NCBI GenBank assembly: GCA_937925855.1
Contig: CALAMO010000034.1
Coordinates: 1-51,775 of the forward strand
From: an uncultured Thiotrichaceae bacterium
GTDB lineage: Bacteria; Pseudomonadota; Gammaproteobacteria; Thiotrichales; Thiotrichaceae
Direction of reading: 5' to 3'
DNA: 51,775 nt
In this document: positions 7,231-14,997 of the stretch, piece by piece
How the letters are laid out: each line of letters begins with the position of its first letter
Position numbering within the stretch: position 1 is the stretch's first letter
Program-made: the position numbers and the translations under genes
The notes under the pieces: generated by a model
The model's input: only the letters and a program-made list of their open reading frames with translations
Told to the model about the DNA's origin: nothing
The model's database searches: none

Positions 7231-7503
7231 ATGAACAAAACAGAATTAATTGACGAGGTCTCTGCCAAGTCTGGTTTAACGAAGGCAGATGCTGATCGAG
7301 CTTATAAAGCGATGGTTGATGTGGTCTCTGAGCAACTCGCTAAAGGTGAGCAAATCTCGCTGATTGGCTTTGGTACCTTCTTGGTACGTGAGCGTCAAGC
7401 ACGCACCGGACGCAATCCTCGCACGGGTGATGCGATCGATATTGCAGCAGCAAAAATTCCTGCATTTAAGGCTGGCAAAGCGTTAAAAGATGCAGTAAAC
7501 TAG
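7231..7503 (+). CDS. hupB: DNA-binding protein HU, beta type
   Basis: HU is a small dimeric nucleoid protein that bends DNA. The 90-aa product begins MNKTELID and contains the DNA-binding arm with GFGTF and RTGRNPRTG, both hallmarks of the family. The start at 7231 gives the standard length and has AAGGAA upstream. A longer in-frame reading back to 7102 would overlap the promoter and has no family support. Position after lon and before tRNA-Val is typical of Pseudomonas-like gammaproteobacteria. Confidence 0.96.
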   Translation: MNKTELIDEVSAKSGLTKADADRAYKAMVDVVSEQLAKGEQISLIGFGTFLVRERQARTGRNPRTGDAIDIAAAKIPAFKAGKALKDAVN

Positions 7504-7519
7504 CCGCCTTTCCAATGAC

Positions 7520-7595
7520 GGGTGATTAGCTCAGTTGGTAGAGCGTCGCCCTTACAAGGCGAATGTCGGGGGTTCAAGTCCCTCATCACCCACCA
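7520..7595 (+). tRNA. tRNA-Val (anticodon TAC)
   Basis: Acceptor GGGTGAT pairs with ATCACCC, then A and an encoded CCA. Stem TCGCC/GGCGA encloses CTTACAA, giving TAC. It starts 16 bp after hupB and may share its transcript. Confidence 0.97.
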
Positions 7596-7609
7596 CCGTT
7601 TATTGGATT

Positions 7610-7686
7610 GGAGCGGTAGTTCAGTTGGTTAGAATACCGGCCTGTCACGCCGGGGGTCGCGGGTTCGAGTCCCGTCCGCTCCGCCA
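7610..7686 (+). tRNA. tRNA-Asp (anticodon GTC)
   Basis: Acceptor GGAGCGG pairs with CCGCTCC, then the G discriminator and CCA. Stem CCGGC/GCCGG encloses CTGTCAC, giving GTC. It lies 14 nt after tRNA-Val. Confidence 0.97.
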
Positions 7687-7789
7687 CTATGACAACGTTA
7701 AATATTCTTTATTTTCTTTGGGGATTCCTTCCCCTCATCGTCAGCTTTTTGTATGATGCCGATCTACTTAAATAATACGCAGAAAAAAT

Positions 7790-9676
7790 ATGTTACAAGC
7801 AATTCATGACAAGGCGAAGGGCTGGGTTGCCTATGCCATCGTTGGCTTCATCAGTATCCCATTCGTGCTTTTTGGTATTAATTCCTATTTCGAGGGCGGC
7901 AGTGCGGCACCGGCTGCAATTGTCAACGGTGAGGAAATTGATTCCAGAGAGGTTCAGAATCAACTGGCACAATTAAGGCAGCAATTTGGGCGTATGGGCG
8001 CAAATTTGGGGGACGAACAGCTGCGACAGATCGCTCTAGATAATGTGATCAACCGTGCTTTATTACGCCAAAAAGCTGATGAGGCGGGTTACCGTGCTAG
8101 TTCAACTGAAGTGGCTAATACGATCAGGCAGTACTTTCAGGCTGATGGGCAGTTTGACGCCGAGCAGTATCAGCGTTATCTAACCACGCAGCGCCGCAAT
8201 CAGGGCGAATTCGAGAACCAAATACGTGAAGACTTGACCCAGGGGCATTTTCAGCAGGCGATTGTGGGCACGGCTTTTGTACCCAAAAGCCAGGCTGAAT
8301 ACTACCAGTCGCTGCGCCAGCAAACACGTGATGTCGAAACCTTTACGCTTAAAATGGCTGACTTTGAAGCGCAAGTGACTATCAGCGACGAACAGGTTGC
8401 CGACTATTTTGAAAAAAATAAAGAACGCTATATGACCGAGGAAAGGGTCAAGCTGGCTTACCTAGATATAGATCAGACTGTGCTGGCTGAATCCATCTTG
8501 GTTACTGACGAAGAGCTGGAAGCTCATTATGATGAAAACGCAAGCGAGTATGTGACGCCAGAAGAACGTGAGGTGAGCCATATCCTAGTTGAAATCAAGG
8601 ATGAAGACGAAGCAGCGGCGCAGGCCAAAGCTGATGGGCTCTATCAGGCGATTAGCTCGGGTGAGCGGACATTTGAAGACGTTGCGCAGAATGATTCTGA
8701 TGACAAAGTGGCTGCTGAGAATAAGGGTCTGCTGGGCAGTGTTGTTGTCGGTGACTGGGGGGCAGATTTTGAGAAAGCGGTTTTTGCGCTGGAAGTGAAC
8801 GTGGTGTCTGAGCCGGTGAAAACTGAAGCAGGCTATGAAATTCTGCGGGTCAACAGCATTACCGAGGCGGTGCAAGAATCCTTTGCTGAGGTGAAAGAAA
8901 GCTTAGCGGAAAATTATCGAGCGACAAAAGCGGCTGATTTGTATCTGGACAAAACAGATCAGGTGCAAACACTGGCCTATGAGCAAAGTGGAGATTTAGC
9001 GCCAGCAGCAGAAGCCGCTGGTATTGAAATCCAGCAGACAGATTGGGTCACCCGCAGCAGTGGTGAAGGTGTGGGGGCTAATCCGCAGCTTAGACAGGTC
9101 GCTTTCTCTGATGAGGTCTTAGTCGAACGTAAAAACTCTGAGCCGATTGAATTAAAAGATACTCAGGCCGTGGTTATCAGGGTCATCGAACATGAGCCGG
9201 CTGAGCAAAAGCCGCTAGACGAGGTAAAGGCTGAAATTGTAGCCGCCTTAACGACGCAGGAAGCGCGTAGCCTTACTGCTAGCAAAGGGGAGGAGTTGTT
9301 AACAAAGTTGGCTGAAACAAATGATTGGTCTGCACTCACAGAAAGTGGCTTGGGTGATGCAGCGGCTGTTGATAAAGCCGGTAAAGTGGAACGCACCGGT
9401 AGTGAAATGTCGCCTGTTGTCGTTGGCAAAGTATTTGGCATGGCGCGCCCGGAGGCCGATAAGCGTAGTTGGGACAGTGCGGTATTGCCCGAGGGCGACT
9501 ATGTTCTGATCGCGTTAAACGGCGTTGAAGATGGTGCGACCGAGGTAGACGAGGCGGCTGGTCAGTTGTTTACTGGTTCGGTAAGCCGACGTGAGTCTGG
9601 GGCTTTACTTAAAGCGCTGCGAGAGCGGGCTGAAGTTGAGTTGAAAACGGAAAACCTTTCATCCGATAGCTACTGA
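7790..9676 (+). CDS. ppiD: PpiD-like membrane-anchored periplasmic folding chaperone
   Basis: PpiD is anchored by one N-terminal helix beside the Sec translocon and assists periplasmic and outer-membrane protein folding. The 628-aa product has a short basic N terminus, a membrane segment at about residues 13-32 (AYAIVGFISIPFVLFGI) and a SurA-type N domain rich in Gln. A parvulin domain lies at about 255-360, starting EREVSHILVEI and containing the GLLG segment. A less conserved C-terminal chaperone region follows. The ribosome site is weak. The hupB-tRNA-ppiD order supports the call. Confidence 0.9.
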   Translation: MLQAIHDKAKGWVAYAIVGFISIPFVLFGINSYFEGGSAAPAAIVNGEEIDSREVQNQLAQLRQQFGRMGANLGDEQLRQIALDNVINRALLRQKADEAGYRASSTEVANTIRQYFQADGQFDAEQYQRYLTTQRRNQGEFENQIREDLTQGHFQQAIVGTAFVPKSQAEYYQSLRQQTRDVETFTLKMADFEAQVTISDEQVADYFEKNKERYMTEERVKLAYLDIDQTVLAESILVTDEELEAHYDENASEYVTPEEREVSHILVEIKDEDEAAAQAKADGLYQAISSGERTFEDVAQNDSDDKVAAENKGLLGSVVVGDWGADFEKAVFALEVNVVSEPVKTEAGYEILRVNSITEAVQESFAEVKESLAENYRATKAADLYLDKTDQVQTLAYEQSGDLAPAAEAAGIEIQQTDWVTRSSGEGVGANPQLRQVAFSDEVLVERKNSEPIELKDTQAVVIRVIEHEPAEQKPLDEVKAEIVAALTTQEARSLTASKGEELLTKLAETNDWSALTESGLGDAAAVDKAGKVERTGSEMSPVVVGKVFGMARPEADKRSWDSAVLPEGDYVLIALNGVEDGATEVDEAAGQLFTGSVSRRESGALLKALRERAEVELKTENLSSDSY

Positions 9677-9719: not shown

Positions 9720-11003
9720 ATGAACGTTCATCTTAAGGCGTTGGGCTGTCGCTTGAATGAGGCTGAGTTGGAGCAGTGGTCACAAAGCTTTCGGGCAAGC
9801 GGTCACAGTATTGTAGCGGACACGCCGGATGCTGATGTGGTGGTGTTGAATACCTGCGCGGTCACGAATGAAGCGTCCGCTAAATCGCGGCGTCTGATTA
9901 ATCGCTTATACCGCGATAATCCCGCTGCGCGCTTGGTGGTTAGTGGCTGTTATGCGACGCTACAGACAGACGAAGTAGCCGATACGCTGGGCGTTGACTT
10001 AGTGGTGCCCAATAGCGAAAAAGACCAGCTGCCACAGCAGGTTATCAGTCAGTTTAATCTGCCGGCAATGCCTAAAATAGCAACTGAGCCAGGAGAATCT
10101 GGATTATTTTTGCGCGGTCGGCACCGTGCCTTTATTAAGATTCAAGATGGCTGCCGTTACCGCTGTACGTTCTGTATCGTAACTGTGGCGCGTGGCGATG
10201 AACGCAGCCGTAGCGAAGCAGAAATTATCACTGAGATTAACCGACTGCATGCGCAAGGCGTGCAAGAAATCGTTTTGACGGGCGTGCATGTCGGCGGTTA
10301 TGGCAGTGATTTACCAGACAGCAGTTTGTATGTCTTGGTCAAGCGCATTCTGGCTGAAACCGATATGCCACGCATTCGTTTTGCTTCAGTAGAACCCTGG
10401 GATTTACCGGAAGGTTTCTTTGCGTTATTCAGCAATACACGGCTGATGCCGCATATGCACCTACCGATTCAAAGCGGGGCCGATTCTGTGTTACGGCGGA
10501 TGGCTCGGCGCTGTAAAACGACAGAATTTAGTGCATTACTGGCACAGGCCAGACGCGAAGTGCCCGGTTTTAACGTGACGACTGATATTATTGTAGGTTT
10601 CCCGGGGGAGACTGAAGAGGAGTGGGCGCAGACGCTGGCGTTTGTGGAGCAAACCGGCTTTGGGCACATCCATATTTTTAATTACTCCGCGCGTGCGGGC
10701 ACTAAGGCTGCAGGCTTAGCGAATCCTGTCGCGGAACCCGTGCGTAAACAGCGCAGCCAGCAATTACACCAGCTTGGCGAACAGCTGAAGCAGGATTGGC
10801 TGCAGCAACAAGCAGGTACAAGCGCAGCGGTGCTGTGGGAGCGGCGCAAGGAAGTCAATGGGCAGGCTGTATATAGTGGCTATACGCCAAATTATTGTAA
10901 GGTGCGCTATCCCACTGCGCTGTCAGCCGATTTAGAAAATAAGGTGACAACCGTGTCCTTGTCGCCGGATGCACAGCACGATGGTCTGTTGTGTGCGCAG
11001 TGA
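9720..11003 (+). CDS. mtaB: tRNA (t6A37) methylthiotransferase, MtaB family
   Basis: MtaB is a radical-SAM enzyme that adds a methylthio group to t6A at position 37 of tRNAs reading ANN codons. The 427-aa product has the N-terminal iron-sulfur cysteines Cys10, Cys46 and Cys77, and the radical-SAM CxxxCxxC motif with Cys145, Cys149 and Cys152. The opening KALGCRLNEAE favours MtaB over MiaB and RimO, which share the same fold. A short C-terminal TRAM-like region follows. The gene lies 43 bp after ppiD and probably shares its transcript. Confidence 0.88.
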   Translation: MNVHLKALGCRLNEAELEQWSQSFRASGHSIVADTPDADVVVLNTCAVTNEASAKSRRLINRLYRDNPAARLVVSGCYATLQTDEVADTLGVDLVVPNSEKDQLPQQVISQFNLPAMPKIATEPGESGLFLRGRHRAFIKIQDGCRYRCTFCIVTVARGDERSRSEAEIITEINRLHAQGVQEIVLTGVHVGGYGSDLPDSSLYVLVKRILAETDMPRIRFASVEPWDLPEGFFALFSNTRLMPHMHLPIQSGADSVLRRMARRCKTTEFSALLAQARREVPGFNVTTDIIVGFPGETEEEWAQTLAFVEQTGFGHIHIFNYSARAGTKAAGLANPVAEPVRKQRSQQLHQLGEQLKQDWLQQQAGTSAAVLWERRKEVNGQAVYSGYTPNYCKVRYPTALSADLENKVTTVSLSPDAQHDGLLCAQ

Positions 11004-11016
11004 GTCCAAGGCGGCG

Positions 11017-11604
11017 TTGAAAGTAGGTACCCCTCTACTCTATTGGGCCGCTCTATGGCTGCTGCACACTTCATTGTCTGCTTGTGTGCCATCCGATGAG
11101 GCAATGGTGCGCGAGGCGACTCATAAATTCTGGCAGAGTATTTTGGTAGGCGACCTGGAAGCTGCCAAAAGACAGTCAACCTGGGATAGCACGCAATACC
11201 TAAAGCTGCTGGCTGATCAGCCATTAAATGCGCAGCGCTTTGAAGTCGGTGAGCTGTTGATTAAGGATGGCGTGGCTGAAGTGGCGACGTTGCTGTACCG
11301 CGAAGGCAGTGCAGCGGAAGTGCCAGTGCGCACTGTGCTGGTGCGTTACGAGCAGGGCTGGCTGGTTGATGTACAAAAAACCTTGGGCTCGATGGTTAGC
11401 GGCACAATGCAGTCCATTGTGGGGCAGCTGAATAGCTTCATGCAGGATGGCCTTAATAATTTGGATGACGCACTGAGTCAGCACCTCGATGAATTGGGTA
11501 AAAGCTTGCAACAGGGGCTGGACGAGCTACAACAAGAGTTCGAGAAGCTGCCAGATTCGGTCACACCAAAGCCCAAGGCTGGGCAAAGCCAGCAGGCGAT
11601 CTGA
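11017..11604 (+). CDS. Predicted lipoprotein of unknown function
   Basis: The product has a lipoprotein signal ending in LSAC, followed by a domain with an FWQSILVGDLEAAKR segment. That segment resembles small NTF2-like lipoprotein domains such as DUF4878, but the resemblance is weak. The last 60 residues form an amphipathic helix with regular Leu spacing. The start is uncertain. TTG at 11017 has CAAGG 5 nt upstream, gives a 23-residue signal peptide and lies just past the mtaB stop. ATG 10981 and GTG 10993 are in frame but overlap mtaB and lack ribosome sites. It is probably the last gene of the ppiD-mtaB unit. Confidence 0.7.
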   Translation: MKVGTPLLYWAALWLLHTSLSACVPSDEAMVREATHKFWQSILVGDLEAAKRQSTWDSTQYLKLLADQPLNAQRFEVGELLIKDGVAEVATLLYREGSAAEVPVRTVLVRYEQGWLVDVQKTLGSMVSGTMQSIVGQLNSFMQDGLNNLDDALSQHLDELGKSLQQGLDELQQEFEKLPDSVTPKPKAGQSQQAI

Positions 11605-11897: not shown

Positions 11898-13124
11898 ATG
11901 CCTAAATTAATCGTTAAGCAAAACAATGGTATCTCTCCGCCACGTAGCAGTAGGGCTATGTGGTTGTCTCTCTGTGGTTTGCTTTCCATCTTGGTCGCAG
12001 TGGCGGTGGCTGCTTTCTATTTTACTCGGCCGTCATTGCCGGGGGCTGATCTTGAACCATTGGCTTTTAGTAGTATGCATGATGAAGGCGCGATGGCAGG
12101 TTATCAGGCTCTGCATGCGGTGCTCGGTGATTTGATGGCTGAGTATGAAGGCTTGGCAGGTCGTGGCGCGGATGATTATCAGAAAAATCTAATGTTGCGG
12201 GGTAAGGCGGAGAGTATTCTGCGGCACCTAGAGGCTATGGAAGTATCCTCTGGACAGCTGGGCTTGAGCACGCAAGAGGCGGGTGAAGCCACGGAGCGAC
12301 ATCAGTTTTATAAAGACTTCTGGCAGGCAAAGCGGCATTTCCGTGAGTTGCGAGTAAACCGTTTTGAACGCACGGAGATTGCCAAGGTTGATGTCAAGGA
12401 CGCCAGCGTGCAAGTCGAAGCCGCAAAGGTGGCCGCTGGTTTGCAAGCGGAAACCACAAAGCTTGATGGCGTTCAAACCGAAGCCGCACTGATTAATGGC
12501 AGCATACAACCGGAGGCTGAGAAAGTTGATGGGGTTAACGCCCAAGCCAAGTCGTCTGGTTTTAAGTTTGCCAAACCACCAGCGGGGATGGAGCTGCCTG
12601 CCGGGTTTTGTGATTTGAGTGATGCTAATAGCAGCTGTAAACCTGAAGCAAGTGCCGCTATCGAAGGTGCTGAGCTACCTGCGGTGGATGAGCTTGCTTT
12701 GCCGGATGAATGGGAACTGCCGCCGCTTGCAGACGATGTGCTGCCAGCCGATGATAATATTGCAGCAGTTAAAGTGGATGAGCCGGCTAAGAAGCCTAAA
12801 TTTCAGTTTGCAAAACCACCAGCAGGCATGGCGATGCCTACCGGGTTTTGCGACCTAAGTCAGGCTGATAATAGCTGTAAGCCTGAAGCAGGGACACTGG
12901 CCGATACAGATTTACCGGCACTGGATGATTTGGCGTTGCCGGAAGACCTAGCGTTACCGAATGATACTGATTTGGCGTTGCCGGAAGACCTAACCTTGCC
13001 CAATGATACTGATTTGGCGTTGCCAGAAGACCTAGCCTTGCCGGAAGGTGGTTTGTTGTCTGATGTGGATCAGCCTGTTCTGAATGAAACCGAGCTTGAT
13101 AGCACCGGCCAGAACAAGCTTTGA
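11898..13124 (+). CDS. Membrane-anchored repeat protein of unknown function
   Basis: I do not recognise this 408-aa protein. It has a basic N terminus, one membrane helix at about residues 22-42 and a helical region to about 155, so most of it is predicted to be periplasmic. The rest consists of three repeat types. Residues 171-217 hold five 10-11-residue units of the form [VLI]Q-x-E. Two 30-residue modules at 222-251 and 302-331 share FAKPPAGM and a C-x8-C pair (Cys238/247 and 318/327). Acidic Leu-Pro repeats based on DLALPEDL occupy 344-384. No Shine-Dalgarno sequence precedes the ATG. The duplicated Cys pair suggests disulfides or metal binding; this is inference. Confidence 0.75.
   Translation: MPKLIVKQNNGISPPRSSRAMWLSLCGLLSILVAVAVAAFYFTRPSLPGADLEPLAFSSMHDEGAMAGYQALHAVLGDLMAEYEGLAGRGADDYQKNLMLRGKAESILRHLEAMEVSSGQLGLSTQEAGEATERHQFYKDFWQAKRHFRELRVNRFERTEIAKVDVKDASVQVEAAKVAAGLQAETTKLDGVQTEAALINGSIQPEAEKVDGVNAQAKSSGFKFAKPPAGMELPAGFCDLSDANSSCKPEASAAIEGAELPAVDELALPDEWELPPLADDVLPADDNIAAVKVDEPAKKPKFQFAKPPAGMAMPTGFCDLSQADNSCKPEAGTLADTDLPALDDLALPEDLALPNDTDLALPEDLTLPNDTDLALPEDLALPEGGLLSDVDQPVLNETELDSTGQNKL
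12408..12548 (+). repeat. Degenerate in-frame repeats encoding 10-11-residue units
   Basis: Five successive units begin VQVEAAK, LQAETTK, VQTEAAL, IQPEAEK and VNAQAK within the unknown protein (residues 171-217). They are diverged at the DNA level, which implies an older expansion than the 42-bp repeats further on. Confidence 0.7.
12561..12890 (+). repeat. Two 90-bp coding modules 240 bp apart
   Basis: Copies at 12561-12650 and 12801-12890 encode near-identical 30-residue modules with FAKPPAGM, GFCDLS and SCKPEA. Both cysteines are conserved in each copy at identical spacing. The 150 bp between them encode an acidic Pro-rich linker. Confidence 0.85.
12927..13043 (+). repeat. Tandem 42-bp repeats encoding acidic Leu-Pro units
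   Basis: Units at 12927-12968 and 12969-13010 and a partial third at 13011-13043 repeat with a 42-bp period and only a few substitutions. They encode DLALPEDLxLPNDT. Their high similarity and in-frame length suggest copy number can vary between strains. Confidence 0.88.
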
Positions 13125-13209: not shown

Positions 13210-14997
13210 TCATAACGCCTCCGTATCCATTGCCAATAATACCTCACCCGACTCACAAACCGTGGTCGCATAGCCCGTGGCCTGCGAGCCATAGGTAATC
13301 AGGAAAAAGCGTGCCAGCTGTTGCAGATTATGCAGGTAAACCGTATCGCCCTCGCCATTTGTCAGCTGCTTATTTGCCGCCAACGCCAGACGGCACATCT
13401 GCCAGCTGCCAGCCACCGTCCCCAACAGATAAAGAAACGGCACCGCACCCGCCAGCACCTGTGCCATGCCATCCTTACCCTGTGCCAGTAACCAGTCTGT
13501 AGCCGTTTGCAGCGCATCCAGCTGCGAATTCAACCGCTGCGCCAAATCGCTCAGCGTATCCCGTTGCTCCAGCAAGCTAGCCGTAGCGCGTATATCGTCC
13601 ATTAGCTCCAGCAGGGTCGCCCCATTTTCACGCAATAGCTTACGCCCAATCAGGTCATTAGCCTGAATACCCGTCGTGCCTTCGTAAATGGTGGTAATAC
13701 GCGCATCGCGGAAGTACTGCGCAATACCCGTTTCTTCCACAAAACCCATGCCGCCAAATACCTGAATCGCATCATCACAGACTTCGTTGCCCACCTCGGT
13801 ACACCAGCCCTTAGCCACCGGCATTAACAAATCAATATAGCGCTGATGCTTGGCCGCAATCGCCTTCTCGGGGTGATGCTGTGCGGTGTCAAACCAGCCT
13901 GCTGCGGTATAAAGCAAAGTACGCATCGCCATTACCCGCGCCCGCATACCGATCACCTGCCGTTTTACATCGGGGTGCGTGAGAATCGGCTGTCCGGTTG
14001 TGCCGGTGACCGCATTACGCCCCTGTACCCGCGTCTGCGCATAATCCAGGGCATACTGATACGCCCGCTCCGCCAGCGCCATGCCCTGCACGCCAACGCC
14101 AAAACGCGCCTCGTTCATCATCACGAACATGGTTTCCAGCCCGCGATTGGCTTCCCCAAGCAGATAGCCCGTCGCCCCGCCATTATCGCCATAGCTCAGC
14201 GCACAGGTCGGGCTGCCGTGAATACCCATTTTGCGCTCGATGGCGATACAGCGAATATCGTTCTGTTCAGCCGGCTCACCCGCCGCATCCAACAGGTACT
14301 TCGGCACAATAAACAGCGATAAACCTTTCACGCCCGCTGGCGCATCCGGCAAACGGGCCAACACTAAATGCACAATATTCGGCGTGATGTCATGCTCACC
14401 GTAGGAGATATAAATCTTCTGCCCAAACAGCTTATAGCTGCCGTCGGCCTGTGGTTCAGCTTTAGTGCGCGTCGCCGCCAGATCGGAACCCGCCTGTGGC
14501 TCAGTCAGGTTCATGGTGCTGCCCCACTCACCGCTTACCACCTTATGTAACCAAGTTTGCTTCTGTTCCTCGCTGGCGGCGATTAGCAGGGCTTTAGTCT
14601 GGCTGATATTAAGATGCGGCAGCATAGTAAACGCGAGGTTATTCGAGAACCACATCTCCCACGTCGGCGTAGACACCAGCGTCGGCAAGCCTTGTCCACC
14701 GAACGCTGTCGGTGCCGCCAGACTAATCCAGCCCAGCTCACAAAACTGCTCATAAGCCTCCGGCCAGCCATCCGGGGTATGTACCACGCCATCTTCCAGC
14801 CGACACCCCTGTTGATCACCCACCTGATTCAGCGGTGCTAATACTTCCCCAGCAAACTTTCCCGCTTCCTCCAGAATCGCCGCCGCCATCTCTGGTGTCG
14901 CTTCATCACAGCCGGGCAACTGGCTAATCTCAGACAAACCCGCCAGCTCATTCATAATGAACTGCATGTCCCGTAACGGCGGCGTGTAATCAACCAT
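13210..14997 (-). CDS. Acyl-CoA dehydrogenase, DmdC-like long family
   Basis: This FAD enzyme introduces a double bond at C2-C3 of an acyl-CoA. The 595-aa length, the late catalytic segment YEGTTGIQANDLIGRK and the extra C-terminal helical domain place it with the long acyl-CoA dehydrogenases that include DmdC and phenylpropanoyl-CoA-type enzymes. TMNLTEPQAGSD is the flavin and substrate loop. It is the last gene of the minus-strand operon, 6 bp after the dehydrogenase at 15004. In this context I infer that it oxidises phenylpropanoyl-CoA or dihydroferuloyl-CoA, feeding saturated side chains into the pathway. A role in methylmercaptopropionate metabolism is less likely because the CoA ligase here is of the feruloyl type. 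Confidence 0.85.
   Translation of the reverse strand: MVDYTPPLRDMQFIMNELAGLSEISQLPGCDEATPEMAAAILEEAGKFAGEVLAPLNQVGDQQGCRLEDGVVHTPDGWPEAYEQFCELGWISLAAPTAFGGQGLPTLVSTPTWEMWFSNNLAFTMLPHLNISQTKALLIAASEEQKQTWLHKVVSGEWGSTMNLTEPQAGSDLAATRTKAEPQADGSYKLFGQKIYISYGEHDITPNIVHLVLARLPDAPAGVKGLSLFIVPKYLLDAAGEPAEQNDIRCIAIERKMGIHGSPTCALSYGDNGGATGYLLGEANRGLETMFVMMNEARFGVGVQGMALAERAYQYALDYAQTRVQGRNAVTGTTGQPILTHPDVKRQVIGMRARVMAMRTLLYTAAGWFDTAQHHPEKAIAAKHQRYIDLLMPVAKGWCTEVGNEVCDDAIQVFGGMGFVEETGIAQYFRDARITTIYEGTTGIQANDLIGRKLLRENGATLLELMDDIRATASLLEQRDTLSDLAQRLNSQLDALQTATDWLLAQGKDGMAQVLAGAVPFLYLLGTVAGSWQMCRLALAANKQLTNGEGDTVYLHNLQQLARFFLITYGSQATGYATTVCESGEVLLAMDTEAL

Follow-up and report, generated by a model that had tools for sequence, protein, structure and literature searches.

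An undescribed, lineage-specific family of single-pass envelope proteins with a conserved cysteine pair

The gene, its locus and its range

The stretch of DNA analysed here (the window; 51,775 nucleotides of contig CALAMO010000034.1 from an uncultured Thiotrichaceae bacterium) carries, downstream of a lipoprotein-like gene, a gene for a membrane protein with a predicted helical domain, a repeat-bearing linker and two cysteine modules (Table 1). A preliminary description of this gene had presented its product as a protein defined by three nested repeat types, namely short [VLI]Q-x-E units, modules with a cysteine pair and tandem DLALPEDL units. The repeats are real, but the protein proved to be one member of a syntenic, lineage-wide family in which 22 of 25 members carry a single module and which, as detailed below, is undescribed.

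Table 1 Features of the window gene and of related loci (window positions unless a locus is named)
Feature	Location	Strand	Details
Whole gene, member of an undescribed single-pass envelope protein family	11898..13124	+	408 aa, ATG start
Conserved, presumably cytoplasmic N-terminus MPKLIVKQ	11898..11921	+	Alignment conservation; orientation from charge
Single membrane helix, residues 17-43	11946..12026	+	Hydropathy and predicted helix H17-43
Predicted periplasmic three-helix bundle, residues 63-160	12084..12377	+	Block-mean pLDDT 89-98
Linker with [VLI]Q-x-E units, four strict and one degenerate	12408..12551	+	
Cysteine module 1, residues 224-251	12567..12650	+	Cys238 and Cys247
Acidic linker joining modules 1 and 2	12651..12806	+	
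Cysteine module 2, residues 304-331	12807..12890	+	Cys318 and Cys327
42-bp tandem repeat coding for the acidic DLALPEDL tail	12926..13043	+	2.8 copies
Neighbour outside the family: order-wide conserved lipoprotein-like gene	10969..11604	+	Homology from about 11044
Kinase-like family member	L021:4697-6265	-	
Kinase-like family member	L100:622-2112	-	
Kinase-like family member	L102:2270-4159	+	
Kinase-like family member	L103:1497-3071	+	
Kinase-like family member	L104:1888-3657	-	
Small exported-looking proteins	L027:6762-7250 and 7338-8006		
Small exported-looking protein	L022:7536-8114		
Small exported-looking protein	L026:9831-10313		
Small exported-looking protein	L031:11359-12042		

Searches covered 63 genomes of the order, comprising three carrier genera (g1, g2 and g4) and 37 genomes in five other genera. 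The family was found in 25 of the 26 genomes of the carrier genera (8/9 in g1, to which the window genome belongs, 16/16 in g2 and 1/1 in g4). We infer that g1 corresponds to Thiolinea and g2 to Thiothrix; the carriers appear to include Thiothrix caldifontis and T. fructosivorans (g2) as well as Thiolinea disciformis and Thiothrix eikelboomii (g1). A published study places disciformis and eikelboomii in Thiolinea (PMC11355018). In the only carrier-genus genome in which no member was seen, G008 (g1, completeness 74%), the contig stops 287 bases from the lipoprotein gene and these bases hold no member, so that the miss may only reflect the contig end. None of the 37 genomes outside the carrier genera yielded a convincing member: two weak matches (G060 and G061), restricted to the helical part (model positions 13–121) of frames of 739–761 amino acids, are regarded as chance, and the L061 frame was rejected as a family member, having no module and resembling by eye a sensor kinase. 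A wider search through 369 genomes of the class, a sample of a larger group, brought up no further full-length member; the sole match outside the carrier genera (G408, E = 7.9e-5) spans model positions 25–117, without the N-terminus or the cysteine tail. Searches with tblastn gave no match in plasmids or phages.

The gene is fixed in position. The order ppiD–mtaB–(lipoprotein)–gene holds in all 13 loci first compared, with the lipoprotein gene present in 12 of them, and lon and clpX lie beyond ppiD in all 12 loci that reach that far, hupB being called in 11 of these (the gene names are our own, those of ppiD and mtaB being backed by Pfam). In an MtaB tree of 23 genomes, with a midpoint root chosen for drawing, the 16 sampled carriers fall on one side of a branch with support of 100/97. 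The next called open reading frame starts at most 265 bases after the lipoprotein gene in seven of nine non-carrier loci, overlapping it in two, and since the shortest family member needs about 390 bases, these seven loci have no room for one. Of the remaining two, G023 has about 660 bases after the lipoprotein gene that are free of any family member, whereas the contig of G058 stops there. The simplest reading is that the carrier clade gained the gene once at its base, whether by origin or by arrival. Its narrow range may instead reflect a failure of homology detection, with divergent relatives elsewhere, a view against which, for this locus, the seven tight loci argue.

Several further features of these loci were recorded. 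The lipoprotein-like gene of the window encodes a C-terminal isoleucine that is invariant in 12 rows, and it matched no Pfam family above cut-off. Downstream, between positions 13210 and 17823, the window carries genes that by eye are acyl-CoA dehydrogenase-, short-chain dehydrogenase- and enoyl-CoA hydratase-like, in the position that FHA, mltD, rnhA and dnaQ genes occupy in most relatives. The otherwise conserved locus of G074 has an extra open reading frame of 426 amino acids with a hydrophobic start between ppiD and mtaB (L098:10767-12047). Within a few kilobases of the family gene, a number of relatives encode two small proteins with short repeats that look exported and abound in Asn, Gly, Met, Pro and Trp (Table 1); the two at L027 have no Pfam match at 0.01, and such proteins are possibly structural or envelope proteins of the lineage. 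A promoter scan returned 2 promoter-like sites against 2.0 expected from shuffles, and 8 terminator-like sites against 1.6 expected; we draw nothing from the latter excess because half of the sites lie inside the gene.

Protein anatomy and selective constraint

All members follow one plan, in which an MPKLxIKQ start is followed by a membrane helix, a helical domain, a linker and a tail of the form LPxGFCxL-x(n)-CKP, with the helical domain missing from two. M1, K3, L4, both cysteines and the proline at position −4 from the first of them are invariant in 25/25 proteins, K7 and Q8 reach 90% or more, and D140, W142, F148, L151 and R152 are conserved within the helical domain of the family alignment. 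The membrane anchor proposed in the preliminary description is borne out by one strong N-terminal hydrophobic segment, beginning near residue 21, with positive charge ahead of it: the best 19-residue hydropathy of the window protein, 2.41, lies at residue 22, and no value above 1.0 occurs past residue 60. Under the positive-inside rule, the positively charged flank of a membrane helix stays on the cytoplasmic side. The charge of the window protein, +4 in residues 1–20 and −2 in residues 43–62, therefore places its C-terminal part outside the inner membrane.

AlphaFold2 predicts for the window protein a helix at residues 17–43, a three-helix bundle with block-mean pLDDT of 89–98 over residues 61–160 and then a low-confidence chain, and a model of a Thiothrix member has the same layout. 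In both models the modules lie off the helices apart from three residues, with block-mean confidences of 54–72 in the window protein and 62–63 in the Thiothrix member, a modest-to-low level at which a loop fold is not established. With the whole window model as query, Foldseek gave 87 matches at E up to 10 and none at 0.001, and the best VIA-align score (Z = 10.2) was to a designed bundle, a level that the tool's own warning describes as common for helical bundles. For both aligners the helical domain is thus a generic three-helix bundle, and we discarded the fold as a guide to function. The domain is retained in 23 of 25 members. Two Thiothrix members, G079 (152 amino acids) and G022 (130 amino acids from the MPKL start), do without it and retain the MPKLxIKQ start, the membrane helix and the cysteine tail, G079 with a Pro-rich stretch in place of the domain; the surrounding gene order identifies both as the same locus.

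The preliminary description knew of no family with this make-up, and a search for a strong match of the whole protein to a described family found none that was convincing, with scattered weak matches only across Pfam, NCBIfam, PHROGs and the PDB. Pfam gave no match above its curated cut-off in 11 members (a weak match, TMF_DNA_bd, had E = 0.001 and 19.5 bits against a cut-off of 35, in the helical part of one of the 11), and NCBIfam gave none above its curated cut-off in 25 members (best TIGR03752, E = 0.0036, in one member). PHROG, for which no curated cut-off exists, yielded nothing convincing (2 of 25 members matched, best E = 0.055), nor did the PDB sequence search, in which a match to NDUA8 (E = 0.09) aligned at model positions 87–137, off the cysteines. 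Among the matches listed in open-licence PMC full text there was no paper on this protein. Assignment to the CX9C (CHCH) proteins, which bear twin CX9C motifs on a helical hairpin, was rejected, as only one pair is present in 22 of 25 members, the spacing ranges from 6 to 10 and the modules, with the exception of three residues, are not on helices in the models.

The layout recalls other bitopic periplasm-spanning proteins without conferring membership in a named family. Proteins of the TonB and TolA type are bitopic and span the periplasm, and the family resembles them, in layout rather than by homology, in its short cytoplasmic N-terminus, single membrane helix, helical or Pro-rich periplasmic spacer and conserved C-terminal element; it differs in that this element is about 30 residues long with a cysteine pair and in an MPKLxIKQ start of its own, and the Pfam scans of 11 members, at E up to 1, contained neither TonB nor TolA. 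Type IV pilins, which have a C-terminal disulfide (D) loop, resemble the family in combining a hydrophobic helix at the N-terminus with a pair of cysteines at the C-terminus. They are set apart by the MPKLxIKQ start and by a membrane helix predicted only from residue 15–17 onwards; no prepilin cleavage motif was seen in the family alignment, and no pilin match was obtained in the 11 members scanned by Pfam.

Selective constraint is unevenly spread along the protein. Pooled over five orthologue pairs, chosen for intermediate distance from eight by omitting a near-identical pair and the two most diverged, pN/pS was 0.18 for residues 1–45, 0.24 for the helical domain, 0.63 for the linker and 0.09 for the cysteine tail, the last from 18–21 codons per pair. 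Fisher tests on nonsynonymous and synonymous changes separated the tail from the linker (p = 9e-9) and from the helical domain (p = 3e-4). One of the five pairs, G006/G004, showed weaker, moderate constraint on the tail (dN/dS = 0.29). These values support the tail as the most constrained segment of the protein, in line with the earlier statement that the cysteine modules are far better conserved between copies than the linker.

The middle of the window protein is by comparison idiosyncratic. Of the five [VLI]Q-x-E units first counted, four are strict (residues 171, 182, 192 and 203) and the fifth, VNAQ at residue 213, is only degenerate; at least four strict copies arose once when the whole protein was shuffled 20,000 times and never when its linker was shuffled as often. 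An array of four occurs only in the window protein among the 25 members. The units themselves are not peculiar to its species, since G005 has three, two of them close together in the linker, and two Thiothrix members have one each. The 42-bp repeat reported to encode the DLALPEDL units was recovered as a tandem repeat (90% matches, score 201), and the resulting Leu-Pro tail is confined to the window species (0/24 other members). The preliminary description expected the copy number of this tail to vary, as it may, and no second strain of the species was found. We take the QxE array and the Leu-Pro tail as fast change of linker sequence.

The cysteine module within and beyond the family

Outside the membrane helix, cysteines occur in all 25 proteins only as module pairs. 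A single further cysteine in the family, C26 of the window protein, lies within that helix. There are 29 modules in total, with one pair in 22 proteins, two in two and three in one, and the proline and both cysteines are invariant in every one of them. Between the cysteines stand 9 residues in 15 modules and 7 residues in another 10; the two modules of the window protein have 8 and one further module has 6, and a row with an undetermined residue in this interval gives 10. The C-x8-C pattern given in the preliminary description accordingly holds for both window modules, which were found as described with their FAKPPAGM lead (FAKPPAGMxxPxGFCDLSxxxxSCKPEA, 28 amino acids each), but not for the family, where the spacing is 6–9 leaving aside that one row. 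Exclusive pairing and a location beyond the cytoplasm, in a genome that also encodes DsbB (81 bits), together point to a disulfide, which would probably close the tail pair into a small loop on the outer side of the inner membrane.

More than one module is present only in G000, G001 and G002. Because these genomes form a clade in the MtaB tree (97/92), the ancestral form is likely to have had one module near the C-terminus. Copies 1 and 2 of G001, with 94% identical DNA, are a recent duplication. Modules 1 and 2 of the window protein differ at pS = 0.56 and pN = 0.09 over 27 aligned codons, and those of G002 at pS = 0.93 and pN = 0.09; given such high pS and low pN, these copies have long been kept by selection and are not fresh duplications.

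A profile search with the module alone, as the preliminary description had proposed, picked out 31 clear matches (E ≤ 3.1e-5, the next match being at 0.03) across the 63 genomes. Of these, 29 lie in family members, where the sequences used to build the profile match by construction, and two lie in another membrane protein, in G001 and G008. Further matches at E of 0.03 to 1, spread over many genomes, were treated as chance. This second protein belongs to a kinase-like family (cluster c14; Table 1) that was matched in 23 of the 63 genomes, all of them g1 and g2, with G002 matched through the module alone and several copies in G001. Its members have a weakly Ser/Thr-kinase-like N-terminal region and a conserved C-terminal domain, with a hydrophobic segment and a long low-complexity linker in between. 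The kinase-like region produced four PDB profile matches, all to PknA (E = 0.03–0.04); three members scanned had no Pfam match at 0.01, and by eye the kinase catalytic residues are apparently missing. The G001 and G008 proteins each carry one module copy in the linker past the membrane segment. As five relatives without the module align on both sides of it, it looks inserted into the linker. The module is common to the family and to these two members of the cluster, whose N-terminal and C-terminal regions are otherwise unrelated to those of the family.

Possible roles in the cell envelope

We postulate, with a probability of roughly 0.4, that the family is a lineage-specific envelope tether, anchored in the inner membrane, whose C-terminal disulfide loop docks on a partner. 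The observations support the anchor, its charge-based orientation, the pairing of the cysteines, the constraint on the tail, the loss of the helical domain in two members and the restriction to one clade; the disulfide, the docking role and the partner we infer. The N-terminal octapeptide would stay in the cytoplasm and make a contact there, one helix would cross the inner membrane, and the three-helix bundle and flexible linker would extend into the periplasm, ending in a short loop, LPxGFC-x(6-9)-CKP, closed by one disulfide. The partner for this loop would sit in the outer periplasm, in the peptidoglycan or at the outer membrane. The two ends would do the work and the middle would be an exchangeable spacer, and multiplication of the loop in the window species and two sister genomes may give higher binding valency. 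In the 22 single-module members the protein ends 2–11 residues after the second cysteine, but the window protein runs on for 81 residues past its last one, and a free terminal loop is therefore not obligatory. The term 'mere spacer' may likewise be too strong for a helical domain that is present in 23 of 25 members at a pN/pS of 0.24, and that may do more than space.

A more tentative and rather doubtful proposal concerns the element itself: LPxGFCxL-x(n)-CKP would have originated a single time in the Thiothrix/Thiolinea lineage, as a portable docking element outside the cytoplasm that forms a disulfide knob for a lineage-specific envelope receptor. It would have been kept on a tether with a changeable middle, multiplied for valency in one subclade and copied into the kinase-like membrane protein to reach the same receptor.

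Alternatively, the protein could act as a thiol redox sensor, in which the periplasmic pair switches between dithiol and disulfide with sulfide or sulfur compounds and the membrane helix relays the change to a cytoplasmic partner of the octapeptide. The invariant cysteine pair, the conserved N-terminus and the recurrence of the module in two kinase-like membrane proteins would suit such a sensor, as would the carriers named above, which are sulfur bacteria according to PMC11355018; Pfam scans, however, revealed no recognisable output domain, and fast-evolving linkers between the two ends would make a poor conformational relay, so that we hold this function to be improbable. We find it similarly hard to favour a division or filament-septum protein, bitopic and situated at septa, that would hold adjoining filament cells while its loop binds septal peptidoglycan or a partner. 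Its bitopic layout, short N-terminus, helical extracytoplasmic domain and C-terminal element fit this role, and the same study describes named carriers as being of the filamentous Thiothrix morphotype (PMC11355018), but Pfam detected no SPOR or other peptidoglycan-binding domain in 11 members, and the locus is one of proteostasis genes rather than a division cluster.

That the upstream lipoprotein and the family protein form a single envelope complex is suggested by their genes, which are adjacent and co-oriented in 12 of 13 loci with gaps of 82–322 bp between the longest open reading frames. The lipoprotein gene is nevertheless order-wide, which weakens a functional pairing: it occurs in 57 of the 63 genomes, 32 of these in genera without the family gene, and G007 has the family gene with no lipoprotein match, making such a complex quite unlikely. 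A short metal-binding motif in place of the disulfide, for which two cysteines per module and up to three modules might speak, is hardly credible, given that the conserved tail columns contain no histidine or further cysteine and that the tail of 22 of the 25 members offers just two cysteines. A pair that never changes while its spacing does is also more readily explained by a disulfide than by a metal site.

The family represents a conserved, positionally fixed gene that none of the libraries searched describes, in a lineage among whose members are filamentous bacteria from wastewater and sulfidic water (PMC11355018). Its evolution suggests that both ends of the protein are the most important parts. 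The module, duplicating within the gene and present in an unrelated membrane protein, offers a small natural case of a portable extracytoplasmic element and could serve as bait for a lineage-specific envelope complex.
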